Source: Lachnospiraceae bacterium (GTDB lineage: Bacteria > Bacillota > Clostridia > Lachnospirales > Lachnospiraceae). Taken from it: DNA of 64,000 nt. Made by a program: the position numbers and the translations under genes. The stretch is from NCBI GenBank assembly GCA_017621075.1, contig JAGATV010000041.1, forward strand, positions 99,989-163,988, written 5' to 3'. This document shows positions 5,776 through 13,034 of the stretch, piece after piece (the stretch's first letter is position 1; every line of letters starts with the position of its first letter). The notes beneath the pieces were generated by a model. That model was given only the letters and a program-made list of their open reading frames with translations, did no database searches and was not told the DNA's origin.

Positions 5776-5790
5776 ATGTCGAAGGGAGAG
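5776..5790 (+). terminator. Left arm of the split nitroreductase terminator
   Basis: ATGTCGAAGGGAGAG lies 5 bp after the nitroreductase stop. It is complementary, 13 of 15 with the two exceptions able to form G-U pairs, to CTTTCCCTTCGGCAT at 13013-13027, which is followed by TTTTTAT. The two arms flank the mobile element. Joined, they would make an intrinsic terminator enclosing the 12-bp stem at 12972-13007. Confidence 0.5.
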
Positions 5791-5817
5791 ACTACATAGG
5801 GAAGTAGCTTCTCCCTT
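5782..5817 (+). terminator. Hairpin at the left element junction
   Basis: AAGGGAGA pairs with TCTCCCTT, with an inner CTAC/GTAG stem, followed by TGGCTTTG. It is partly host and partly element sequence, so it may now end nitroreductase transcription in place of the split original. Confidence 0.45.
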
Positions 5818-5882
5818 TGGCTTTGTAATCAGCCGGATTGATTGAAATTGTAGGAAAATCAATTATTTTGGAGGATTACATA

Positions 5883-6260
5883 ATGGAAAACAGAATTTAT
5901 AATGAGCAGAACGGTTTATGGTATGAAAAGCAGGGGGATTATTATATCCCTTGTCTGACACTTCCCGAAAAAGAGAATCAGTCTATCGGTGTATGGGGAC
6001 AGCGGCATCTACGATACTTGAAGCAACACCGTAAGGTTTTGTATGTGAACTTGCTTACGAGTGGTAAACTAAATTCACATCTTGCGGAAATCGACAAACA
6101 GGCTGAGGATATGTTTTTTCAGCTCGTAAAACAGATGGCAGAGCGTGAGGGTGTTACCGAACAACTTAAGGTGGATAACCAAATGGAGTGGGTTGGTCGG
6201 ATGAATAATATCCGCAACAGAGCAAAGGAAATCGTAAATACAGAATTGATATTCGCATAA
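5883..6260 (+). CDS. tnpV: TnpV transposon-encoded protein
   Basis: 125 residues, resembling the TnpV proteins carried by Tn4451-like elements: an N-terminal YNEQNGLWYEKQGDYY segment, a basic RHLRYLKQHRKV helix and a C-terminal helix with EWVGRMNNIRNRAKEIV. The biochemical role of TnpV is not established. I chose the ATG at 5883 because TTTGGAGG precedes it; an earlier in-frame ATG has no ribosome site. It is the leftmost gene of the element and ends at a shared hairpin. Confidence 0.8.
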   Translation: MENRIYNEQNGLWYEKQGDYYIPCLTLPEKENQSIGVWGQRHLRYLKQHRKVLYVNLLTSGKLNSHLAEIDKQAEDMFFQLVKQMAEREGVTEQLKVDNQMEWVGRMNNIRNRAKEIVNTELIFA

Positions 6261-6264
6261 TATT

Positions 6265-6307
6265 AGCGGCGGTAGGGAGAATAAAATCTCTCTATCGCCG
6301 CTATTTT
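6265..6307. terminator. Bidirectional terminator between tnpV and the minus-strand cassette
   Basis: AGCGGCGGTAGGGAGA and TCTCTCTATCGCCGCT form a 16-bp stem with few mismatches around ATAAAA, flanked by ATTTTAG on the plus side and TAATATTATG on the minus side. It lies between convergent genes. Confidence 0.75.
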
Positions 6308-6485
6308 AGTCATCATCTTCATCATTAGACCAACCAGAAATAATATGCAGCTCTCCAGAATCCATCTCCATTGCCATATTATCGCCCATTCTCATCAACA
6401 AATCTCCTTCGGAATCTATTGCCATATTATCAGAGATAGAATGAGCAAAATCGCTATCTTCAAAATCAAAAAAATGCTTACCCAT
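6306..6485 (-). CDS. Small acidic protein (59 residues), cassette gene 3
   Basis: Starts at ATG 6485 with GAGGTG 5-6 nt upstream; a GTG four codons earlier is less likely. The sequence is acidic and low in complexity, with repeats of the DNMAM type and a tail of SNDEDDD. No family is recognised. It starts 18 bp after the zinc-ribbon gene and shares its direction, so the two are probably cotranscribed. It could be a modulator or antitoxin-like partner, but this is speculation from size and charge. Confidence 0.5.
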   Translation of the reverse strand: MGKHFFDFEDSDFAHSISDNMAIDSEGDLLMRMGDNMAMEMDSGELHIISGWSNDEDDD

Positions 6486-6503
6486 ATAGCACCTCACTTA
6501 AAA

Positions 6504-7184
6504 TTAGTAATCATATTTATTTATTTCTAAAACCCTGAAAGTTGCGTTTTTGAATTGATTTAATTTTTCCTGTTCTACATATTCAAAGGCTTTCAAATAT
6601 ATCTCTTGACCAGCACCTAATCTATCAGCGTAAATCATATCTGTTTCAATTCTTGCACCGTTTGCATCTACTGCTTCGATTGTTATGTAATAAGTACATT
6701 GTTTTTCAGCTTTATTTTTTACTGTAATATCAAGTGATGTCTCGGAGAAGTAGCCATTATTAGTGATTTTGAATTCCCCGAAAGAAACCTCAACATATTT
6801 TTCTAAAATTTCATCTGTCGTTTCTTCTCTAAATACATCACCAATTGCAGGGATATTAGATTCAATATCATCTGATATGTTACTAAAAAGCGAAGCGGCA
6901 AAAACGACATACAGAATTACAAGAATAATCGACAAAACAATTTTGGTTATAAAGCCAATCAAAGCACCTTTACCCGCCGACTTAGCTCGTTTGGGTTTCT
7001 TTCCTTCGTATATAAGAAAGAGGATTAAACCAACAATCGGAACAAAAAATCCCAAGATAGCAAACCCAAAACTTGAACAATCTTCAGAAACATTTGCATT
7101 GGGCTTATTATCGATTCGAGCCCCGCAGTTATTACAATATGATGAAGTATCATCTACAATTCTACCACAATTTTTACAATACAT
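6504..7184 (-). CDS. Zinc-ribbon membrane protein, cassette gene 2
   Basis: 226 residues. An N-terminal zinc ribbon has C3, C6, C17 and C20 (CxxC pairs). Two predicted transmembrane helices follow at about 39-59 and 75-98, separated by a basic KKPKRAKSAGKG loop. The C-terminal 100 residues are beta-rich with alternating strands, like FxLYD/DUF4352-type extracellular domains. The start has AAAGGATAG upstream. It sits 15 bp after the nucleotidyltransferase-fold gene. AT-rich, unlike the host genes. It could be an accessory membrane effector; the function is unknown. Confidence 0.7.
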   Translation of the reverse strand: MYCKNCGRIVDDTSSYCNNCGARIDNKPNANVSEDCSSFGFAILGFFVPIVGLILFLIYEGKKPKRAKSAGKGALIGFITKIVLSIILVILYVVFAASLFSNISDDIESNIPAIGDVFREETTDEILEKYVEVSFGEFKITNNGYFSETSLDITVKNKAEKQCTYYITIEAVDANGARIETDMIYADRLGAGQEIYLKAFEYVEQEKLNQFKNATFRVLEINKYDY

Positions 7185-10869: not shown

Positions 10870-11135
10870 ACGAGGTAATTTATCTTGACGAGCAAGGCAA
10901 TGCTTGCAGTGAAAACGATGAACTTTATACCGTCATTGACGATATAACCGCAAGGCTGATGAAGATGAGCAAAGAGGAACGAATTGATTGGTTTCGCAGG
11001 ACGCAGCACCCACACCCAATCAACTTTGATACCGAGATTAACGGCACGGTTTACTCGGTCAGCGCTCATTTTAACAATGCAGCAAATGAAAGTCTGCTGG
11101 AAAAAGCAGAACGAATTATTTTGAAAAAGATGTAA
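10866..11135 (+). CDS. TnpW-like transposon protein
   Basis: 89 residues. The N-terminal half is acidic (VIYLDEQGN, KMSKEERIDWF). The C-terminal half, NGTVYSVSAHF followed by a Glu/Lys helix ending ERIILKKM, resembles the short TnpW proteins of Tn4451-like elements. Function is not known. It starts inside the relaxase stop (ATGA) and lies just before the recombinase promoter. Confidence 0.65.
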   Translation: MNEVIYLDEQGNACSENDELYTVIDDITARLMKMSKEERIDWFRRTQHPHPINFDTEINGTVYSVSAHFNNAANESLLEKAERIILKKM

Positions 11136-11162
11136 CAAATTTCAGAACACCGCTTTAAAGTG

Positions 11163-11191
11163 TTGAAGTTTAACGGCGGATATGGTATTAT
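11163..11191 (+). promoter_or_regulatory. Promoter of the recombinase gene with flanking inverted repeat
   Basis: TTGAAG (11163-11168), 17 bp, TATTAT (11186-11191). CGGATATG (11177-11184) and CATATCCG (11213-11220) form an 8-bp perfect inverted repeat around the -10 and start region. It could be an operator or a 5' hairpin next to the GGAAAGGAG ribosome site. Confidence 0.6.
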
Positions 11192-11238
11192 AATTGTACC
11201 TACGATTTATATCATATCCGGCTGTGGAAAGGAGCTAT

Positions 11239-12918
11239 ATGAGCATTAAACAGCCAACAGACAGAATCACCGCCCTCTATGCCCGCCTCAGTCGTGATGA
11301 CGAAAAGGACGGTATATCGGGCAGTATTCAGAATCAAAGAGCCATACTCGAAAAGTATGCAAAGGACAATAAGCTGCCGAATCCCCGCTTTTTCTATGAT
11401 GATGGATTTTCAGGCGTTCTGTTCAACAGACCGGCGTTTATGGAGATAATGGAGCTTGCCGAACAGGGCTTGGTTGCCAATCTTGTGGTAAAAGACCATT
11501 CCAGACTTGGGCGTAACCGCTTAATCGTCGGTCAGCTTTTGGAGGAAGATTTTATCCGCCTGAATGTGCGTTATATCGCAATTATGGATAACATCGACAC
11601 CAAAAACGGTATCAGCGACCTTGTTCCGATGCAGGACTTATTCAACGAATGGCACGCAAAAAACACAAGCGATAAAGTCCGTAAGGTAATGCAGAGCAAG
11701 GGAATGTCGGGAAAGCATTTAACGACCAACCCGCCTTTCGGGTATATGAAATCACCCGATGATAAGGAGCAATGGATAATCGACGAGCCTGCCGCAGAGG
11801 TTGTAAAAAGAATATTCGACCTTTGCATTTCGGGGCTCGGACCGACGCAGATTGCAAAGAAACTCAAAGCCGAAAAGGTTATGACGCCCACAGAATACTG
11901 GAACAGTATCGGAAGAAAATGCAGTAATCCGCCTGCCGTTCCGTTTGGATGGGTAGCAGATACGGTATCCAATATTCTTGATAAGCAAGAGTATTGTGGA
12001 GACACGGTAAACTTCCGAACCACAAGCAAATCTTTCAAATTGAAAAAGCGATTGGAAAGACCGCAGGACGAGTGGCAGATATTTGAAAACACCCACCCCG
12101 CTATTGTGGACAGAGAAACCTTTGCACTTGTGCAGGAGTTAAGAAAGCACCGTCGCAGACCAACTAAGAGCGGAATTGTGAGTATGTTTTCGGGACTTCT
12201 CTACTGCGCCGATTGCGGAGAAAAACTGTATTACAGCGTGACGAACAACTACAAAAGGGAGCAAGCGTATTTCTTCTGTTCTTCCTATCGTAAAAACTCC
12301 GATATATGCTCTGCCCACTATATCCGAGAAAAAGTAATTGAAAAGCTTGTGCTTGAAAGTATGCAGAGGGTATTGTGGTATGTGCAGTCATACGAAAAGC
12401 TGTTCGCACAAAAGCAGCTTGAAAACTTCGGAGAGCAGAAGAAAAAGGAACTGACCGAGAAGCGCAGAGAACTTGAAAAAGCGAAAAGGCGTATCCGAGA
12501 GATTGATACCGTTATTCAAAAGCTTTATGAGGATAACGCAACGGGTAAGGTAAGTGATGACCGATTTGCCACGATGTCGATGTCTTTGGAAACCGAGCAG
12601 GAGGAACTGAAAACCAAAGTCCCCGAACTGGAAACCGAACTTGAAAACGCCAAAATCGCCACCGAAGGCTTACAGCGTTTTATTGAAAAGGCAAAGAAGG
12701 TAACGCAGCTTACGGAGCTGACGCCGGAACTGGTACACGAATTTATCCAAAAGATTGTGGTCAGCAAACCCGAATACAAGGACGGAAAACGATACCAGAG
12801 CGTGGAAATCCACTACAACGGTGTGGGTATTATCCGTGAACCTTCTCCCGAAGAAATGGAAGAATACTTCCAAGAGCACCTGAAAACAAAAGGTGCAAGA
12901 ATGACAAAAACGGCATAA
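11239..12918 (+). CDS. Large serine recombinase (TnpX/TndX family)
   Basis: 559 residues. The resolvase domain has the nucleophile Ser18 in [11 protein letters not shown], and DHSRLGRNR further on. A recombinase domain follows, then a zinc ribbon with CADCG and a second Cys group ending SDIC, then a long coiled coil (about 395-490). This is the usual layout of large serine recombinases that excise and insert elements at a GA core. The ATG at 11239 has GGAAAGGAG upstream; an earlier start is inside the promoter. It is the rightmost gene, with its stop about 50 bp from the inferred right end. Confidence 0.93.
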
Positions 12919-12971
12919 CCCGAAGGCTACGCCGTATGAAAACGATAATATTAAGTTAAGATACAGAGCCG

Positions 12972-13007
12972 CCTTGGGGCACCTTCCTTATGGAGGGTGC
13001 CCCAAGG
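12972..13007 (+). other. 12-bp perfect stem-loop at the right element junction
   Basis: CCTTGGGGCACC and GGTGCCCCAAGG surround a 12-nt loop. In the inferred pre-insertion sequence it would be the inner stem of the nitroreductase terminator. No T-run follows it directly. Confidence 0.6.
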
Positions 13008-13012
13008 GTATC

Positions 13013-13034
13013 CTTTCCCTTCGGCATTTTTATG
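13013..13034 (+). terminator. Right arm of the split nitroreductase terminator
   Basis: CTTTCCCTTCGGCAT followed by TTTTTAT. It is the partner of 5776-5790 across the mobile element. On its own it has no upstream partner strong enough to terminate. Confidence 0.5.

Follow-up and report, generated by a model that had tools for sequence, protein, structure and literature searches.

The stretch analysed here, hereafter the window, comprises 64,000 nucleotides of a Lachnospiraceae bacterium (assembly GCA_017621075.1, contig JAGATV010000041.1), and all coordinates below are positions in it. It contains a mobilizable element whose large serine recombinase is TnpX-like and carries a DUF4368 domain, and comparison with related genomes indicates that this element has split the intrinsic (rho-independent) terminator between a nitroreductase gene (5234-5770) and the aspartate carbamoyltransferase gene pyrB (13114-14028). 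We consider it very probable, on the joint evidence of this locus and of the relatives of the element, that the insertion took place at an AA core within the nitroreductase terminator and that the DUF4368 serine-recombinase family concerned targets or favours intrinsic terminators.

The left arm of the terminator is ATGTCGAAGGGAGAG (5776-5790) and the right arm is CTTTCCCTTCGGCAT (13013-13027), after which comes TTTT. The arms pair over 15 positions, of which two are G-T; both were located correctly in the original prediction, made from the window sequence alone, which had proposed that a mobile element divided one terminator between them. The left remnant is separated from the nitroreductase stop codon by 5 nucleotides, and the split site has by sequence the features of an intrinsic terminator, namely a GC-rich stem-loop and a T-run just after a gene. 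Searches with stretches of the nitroreductase and pyrB genes, which matched 125 of 138 genomes of the genus and 41 of 61 genomes of several families, respectively, yielded 58 orthologous loci besides the host's own three, all from the same genus as the host. These 58 loci are free of the element and have nitroreductase and pyrB next to each other with at most 280 bases between them, the nitroreductase of L029 being truncated at a contig end. As 7 loci were repeats, 51 distinct intergenic sequences could be compared, and every one of them has, just 3′ of the nitroreductase stop, an intact terminator of one sequence type, in which xGTCGAAGRG, a short loop, CYCTTCGAC and a T-run follow one another. 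One pattern recovered 50 of the 51, and a broader pattern, as well as reading by eye, identified that of L025, a CCGAAGG variant. L040 and L035, the two nearest sequences, have the terminator ATGTCGAAGGGGTTTCCCTTCGATATTTTTATG. The intact terminators of the relatives imply that the outer stem represents a real, conserved terminator that now lies in two pieces in the window, in agreement with the central claim of the prediction. The outer pairing is accordingly not a chance match as a whole, although the left arm of 15 bases includes 7 (5784-5790) that are part of the conserved end of the element and pair with the right arm by chance.

The ends of the element were placed by comparison with its relatives. 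With the recombinase gene (11239-12918) as the query, 80 of 329 relatives were taken, each with flanking DNA of up to 10 kb. Enough downstream DNA was available in 80 sequences, counting that of the window, and a right end was matched in 73 of these. For 26 copies with a right end, a pattern located the left end as well; motif variants did so for L137 and L138, and L110 and L132 gave a left end only. The core was defined as the two bases 11 nucleotides after CTTCCTTAYG at the right end and 12 nucleotides before RTAAGGAAG at the left end, variants of both motifs being allowed. At this spacing, the left and right core dinucleotides agree in 28 of 28 copies, including the window; for L137 and L138 the equality is not independent, because their variants were chosen by hand after the sequence had been seen. 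The core is AA in 16 copies, AT, TT, AC, GG and GA in 2 each, and GT and AG in 1 each. Since the core is equal at a fixed spacing in all copies, the junction is placed at AA, 5782-5783 and 13004-13005. The closest relatives have a common right-end hairpin, CTTGGGGCACC-TTCCTTAY-GGAGGGTGCCCC, after which the sequences diverge, and more distant subfamilies have different right-end hairpins around the same CTTCCTTAYG motif. The left ends have a common GGGAGRCACTWCRTAAGGAAGT, with variants, preceded by unrelated flanks. The boundary is particularly sharp between the window and L062, which match at 1,750 of the 1,767 positions between 11239 and the core and at 25 of the 100 beyond it. In addition, the elements of L070 and L071, between which there is no difference over 9,340 bp, occupy two different sites, each of them a split palindrome.

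This placement differs from that of the original prediction, which had rejoined the flanks at GA (5788-5791 and 12966-12967), had derived the exact ends of the element from this junction, and had regarded the resulting nested double hairpin as the ancestral terminator. A strong nested hairpin does form when flanks joined in this way are folded, and Tn4451 has GA as its core dinucleotide. However, the AA placement is consistent in all 28 copies, both the inner hairpin and the stretch 5784-5817 recur in unrelated flanks as conserved ends of the element, and an inner hairpin is present in the terminator loop of none of the 51 relatives, as judged by reading the folds by eye, the longest gap between the arm motifs being 14 nucleotides. 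The GA junction is rejected on the basis of these conserved ends, the AA placement and the plain terminators of the relatives, and an ancestral nested hairpin appears extremely improbable. The local hairpin proposed at 12972-13007 is itself real, with 16 pairs in our scan instead of the proposed 12, and constitutes the right end of the element. The empty-site check that had been suggested, made here on relatives of the genus, thus recovered an intact terminator in the form of a plain hairpin and no nested inner stem.

From the AA junction, the empty site would be a plain hairpin like those of the relatives, ATGTCGAAGGG-TATCCTTT-CCCTTCGGCAT-TTTTAT; written as ATGTCG-AA-GGGTATCCTTTCCCTTCGGCATTTTTATG, it has an 11-bp stem, an 8-nucleotide loop and a T-run. 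Element-free members of the same species are predicted to carry the join ATGTCG-AA-GGGTATCC (also given as ATGTCG-AA-GGGTATCCTTTCCC), and the excision circle is predicted to join at GGTGCCCC-AA-GGGAGAG. Among the genomes compared for the empty-site look-up, the genus of G264 was represented by G264 alone. We also considered whether the end hairpins of the element rebuild a working terminator, and this idea was discarded for both ends. On the left there is only a weak 6-pair match at 5799-5813 with the tail CCTTTGGCTT, and on the right the scan lists the hairpin at 12972-13007 and a 5-pair site at 13004-13021, but the real T-run (13028) is about 20 nucleotides beyond the hairpin.

Many relatives of the element repeat the pattern seen at the nitroreductase locus. 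Their joined flanks are split palindromes with A-runs and T-runs, for example AAAAACATCCCCCCTC and GAGGGGGGATGTTTTT in L089, AAAAAAACACCGCC and GGCGGTGTTTTTTT in L133, AAAAAAAGCACCC and GGGTGCTTTTTTT in L096, and AAAAAGTCTGCCC and GGGCAGACTTTTT in L126. The mean pairing energy of matched flanks is −18.5 kcal/mol, compared with −9.9 kcal/mol for mismatched flanks; in 20,000 permutations the matched mean was never reached, and by this energy the true right flank ranks first in 16 of the 28 copies. The stem tests used random positions of the same loci as controls. A core-centred stem with a score of at least 8 is present in 17 of the 28 sites, compared with 1.1% of 41,110 random positions and 3.0% of 5,423 positions between open reading frames (ORFs), and a core-centred stem together with an A- or T-run is present in 16 of 28, compared with 0.33% and 1.5%, respectively. 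For a larger set of 30 sites, the 28 copies were supplemented with G021 and G122, both from the genus of the host, the site of G122 being joined from two contigs (L201 and L200) on the assumption that one element runs across both. A strong palindrome lies anywhere within 40 nucleotides of the core in 21 of these 30 sites (159 of 1,680 random positions) and has its centre within 3 nucleotides of the core in 19 (12 of 1,680), the 1,680 control positions being drawn from coding as well as intergenic DNA. TTTT occurs within 25 nucleotides of the core at 57 of the 73 right ends, compared with 29.5% of inter-ORF positions. Around the core, the frequency of A peaks at −12 (0.86) and that of T at +12 (0.82), with GC-rich sequence between. 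ORFs called mechanically at 100 or more amino acids span the core in 12 of the 28 sites, a count judged uninformative.

Two further loci bear on this pattern. In G082, for which only the right end was resolved, bases 2-65 of the right flank match a 64-nucleotide stretch of G087 at 94%, and this stretch is an intact terminator. In G122, the outer flanks of the element apparently broken over L201 and L200 pair with a stem score of 19; none of 9 other fetched loci spans the junction of its empty site. As the case of L201 and L200 illustrates, a split terminator offers a way of linking contigs.

A mechanism consistent with these observations can be outlined. The recombinase would have integrated the element at the AA core in the left stem arm of the nitroreductase terminator, its two subunits reading a dyad composed of an A-tract and a T-tract, each about 12 nucleotides from the core, the former to its left and the latter to its right. 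The layout of a terminator (A-run, GC arm, loop, GC arm, T-run) would fit this dyad, so that the crossover would fall most often in the loop. On excision, the circle would join the two end hairpins into one site, and terminators would serve as harmless landing sites.

Several observations weigh against this interpretation, beginning with the window itself: its insertion is off-centre, with the palindrome centre 8 nucleotides from the core, and it fails the core-centred test because the core lies in the left arm and not in the loop. Eleven of the 30 sites have no core-centred strong palindrome. No terminator spans the core in L077, L097, L103 or L124, and those of L066, L075, L111, L131, L063 and L068 are weak or off-centre. 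The right flank of L202 (from G001, right end only) is not terminator-like, and the regions orthologous to the site of G021 are mixed, with a terminator in some relatives and not in others as read by eye. In a second sample, consisting of right ends recognised by the hairpin pattern alone and tallied apart from the main counts, TTTT lies within 25 nucleotides in 6 of 11. Eight of these places were taken with more flank, and only two of them hold a long TnpX match, the other six having none, so that several may be remnants.

Some side observations concern the same collection of ends. The sites of L124 and L131 adjoin other palindromic stretches, of the GGGACGGTTC and GGGGACAGTCCCC types, without a clear T-run, which are perhaps another repeated hairpin used as a target. 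The fetched stretches of L183 and L185-L189 have right-end hairpins of the element family but no intact TnpX, L186 having a short C-terminal fragment of it; these are perhaps remnants or non-autonomous derivatives. L171 and L172 have the same sequence after the right-end hairpin.

The preference for terminators might in principle arise without any choice by the recombinase, if insertion into AT-rich intergenic DNA were of low specificity and selection against disrupted genes left survivors in terminators. Low integration specificity has been described for Tn4451 (PMC5704250), terminators are non-coding, and 11 of the 30 sites are not core-centred. Such survivorship, however, would not bring the palindrome centre to within 3 nucleotides of the core in 19 of the 30 sites, and inter-ORF positions of the same loci have core-centred stems far less often than the insertion sites (3.0% against 17 of 28). 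We therefore hold this explanation to be very improbable.

The remaining question is what the recombinase reads in a terminator. It is fairly likely that it reads only the linear motif of A-tract, core and T-tract, the GC palindrome being incidental because strong motif matches in genomes are mostly terminators; this is the plain form of the last step of the mechanism above and not an alternative to the insertion itself. The site in the window fits the A/T motif, with A at −12 to −9, T at +9 to +11 and a score above the median, although it is off-centre in the hairpin, and this fit would explain an insertion in the stem of the terminator. With the fetched loci as background in place of the whole host genome, most of the top-scoring background positions are palindromic (10 of the 14 that exceed the 75th percentile of site scores), and the top 8 in a second scan are all palindromic, both strands having been scanned so that a terminator may count twice. 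An A-rich/AA/T-rich motif has also been published for Cp36 (PMC10083194). On the other hand, 9.8 palindromic sites would be expected from positions with a matching motif score, whereas 17 of 28 were observed (mismatched flanks, 52 of 756), an excess that is not decisive because subfamilies with different cores were pooled in the motif. The A/T motif would thus explain part of the pattern, to which the palindrome may add. A rather unlikely extension is that what the recombinase recognises in a terminator is the palindromic form and not a fixed sequence, perhaps through extrusion of a cruciform or a loop that unpairs easily, so that any stem sequence would be valid; if true, it would be a case of a serine integrase specific for a signal of gene expression and not for a gene.

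The features of the locus and the genes of the element are listed in Table 1. The recombinase combines resolvase, recombinase and zinc-ribbon domains with DUF4368, the domain composition of the multi-targeting DUF4368 clade; as in that clade, related recombinases occur at many different targets, the 28 copies compared having different flanks, and an A-rich/core/T-rich target motif like that of Cp36 is found at the insertion sites. Among solved protein chains, its sole match at E 1e-5 is the TnpX fragment 2mhc (E 7.9e-31), and plasmid records annotated as TndX are about 37% identical to it. The host genome (87% complete) contains one copy of the recombinase and no second one. The element has its own integrase and relaxase, as expected of an integrative mobilizable element, and searches of its eight larger ORFs against Pfam and NCBIfam found no transfer-system family beyond the relaxase and mobilization proteins. 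Homologues of TnpV, TnpW, the NikA-like protein, the relaxase and the DUF4368 recombinase mark the element, as judged by homology, as an integrative mobilizable element related to the Tn4451 group.

Table 1. Features of the split terminator, the element ends and the genes of the element (window coordinates)
Feature	Position	Strand	Basis or remark
Left remnant of the split terminator (ATGTCG + core AA)	5776..5783	+	Heads the intact terminator in L040 and L035
Crossover core AA (2 bp), left copy	5782..5783	+	Fixed 12-nt spacing to RTARGGAAG; equals right core
Integrated mobilizable element, 7,222 bp	5784..13005 (equivalently 5782-13003)	+	Conserved ends, core identity
Left-end hairpin of the element (recombinase site half)	5784..5817	+	Starts GGGAGAG; conserved in relatives, unrelated flanks
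tnpV-like gene	5883..6260	+	Pfam PF14198 TnpV, E 3.9e-52
Cargo: zinc-ribbon protein	6504..7184	-	Pfam PF13240, E 2.1e-6
Cargo: protein without family match	7200..7880	-	No match in Pfam or NCBIfam (E 0.001) or in PADLOC (E 0.1)
NikA-like mobilization accessory protein	9105..9506	+	Pfam PF21983, E 2.4e-8; start codon uncertain
Relaxase, MobA/VirD2-like	9508..10869	+	Pfam PF03432, E 6e-40; no other Pfam family
tnpW-like gene	10866..11135	+	Pfam PF14202, E 1.9e-7
Large serine recombinase, TnpX-like, with DUF4368	11239..12918	+	Pfam PF00239, PF07508, PF13408, PF14287
Right-end hairpin of the element	12972..13003 (scan scores to 13007)	+	16 pairs; conserved in close relatives, unrelated flanks
Crossover core AA (2 bp), right copy	13004..13005	+	Equals left core
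Right remnant of the split terminator (GGG, loop TATCCTTT, CCCTTCGGCAT, T-run)	13006..13034	+	Same type as the terminators of relatives

Further observations were made on the content and distribution of the element. A strong terminator-like hairpin of 17 pairs at 6264-6303 lies after tnpV, whose transcript it could separate from the remainder of the element. A GSG...DLD stretch in the cargo protein without a family match resembles, by eye, a nucleotidyltransferase. Nearly the same element is present with another flank in L062, a contig of a metagenome-assembled genome (positions 1-3466), where TnpX is 99% identical and relaxase residues 12-453 are 100% identical, pointing to recent transfer between hosts. 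Among the matches listed, a DUF4368 recombinase 53% identical to that of the element is found on plasmids of Klebsiella, Citrobacter, Enterobacter and Salmonella, a jump across phyla; a near-DNA search of plasmids gave no match.

A preference for terminators offers an explanation for multi-targeting serine recombinases and for the published target motif, as terminators would often be the native targets and are plentiful and mostly non-coding. It predicts where such elements sit and allows their exact ends to be determined from sequence alone. The insertions imply the loss of a terminator, and read-through into and out of the element may alter. The preference may also matter for the use of these enzymes as integration tools, for which palindromic sites flanked by A and T would be the preferred targets.

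The closest described system is the multi-targeting DUF4368 clade of Durrant et al. (2022), in which the Cp36 motif consists of an A-rich 5′ region, an AA core and a T-rich 3′ region (PMC10083194). Cp36-type recombinases are of the same type as that of the element, namely serine recombinases with DUF4368, many targets and an A-rich/AA/T-rich motif. By comparison with the published description of Cp36, many of the native targets here are intrinsic terminators in whose loop the core lies, and the core dinucleotide varies between relatives; the word 'terminator' is absent from the main text of that article. It is likewise absent from the accessible text of a review of integrative mobilizable elements, which gives Tn4451 a 2-bp shared sequence, low specificity and a MobV relaxase (PMC5704250), and from that of an article reporting a 2-bp repeat for the related Tn6104 (PMC3158075), and its single mention in the available part of PMC3783163 refers to a reporter part. 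Some insertion sequences are described as targeting repetitive extragenic palindromic (REP) sequences, that is, palindromic extragenic sequence (PMC1525189). Among the titles and abstract openings listed from the open-licence literature, no paper linking a large serine recombinase to terminators was found. The wider result here is a serine-recombinase element family that favours terminators, the A-rich/AA/T-rich motif having already been published for Cp36.

Tn4451 and Tn4453, as far as their available descriptions extend, have in common with the element a TnpX-like recombinase, TnpV and TnpW homologues, a 2-bp direct repeat and a relaxase gene. The core of the element is AA and not the GA of Tn4451, which is found in some relatives of the element. 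Its relaxase belongs to the MobA/VirD2 Pfam family, in contrast to the MobV relaxase given for Tn4451 (PMC5704250), and because of these differences in core and relaxase the element is not filed as a member of the Tn4451 family. Unlike Tn4451 and Tn4453, it has no chloramphenicol acetyltransferase among its tested genes. Group IIC introns are mobile elements that also choose intrinsic-terminator hairpins, beside which they insert by RNA-based retrohoming, whereas here a DNA recombinase would cross over inside the hairpin and split it. The REP-targeting insertion sequences, in turn, use transposases of other chemistry and one repeated sequence family, whereas the stem sequences targeted by the element and its relatives differ between sites.

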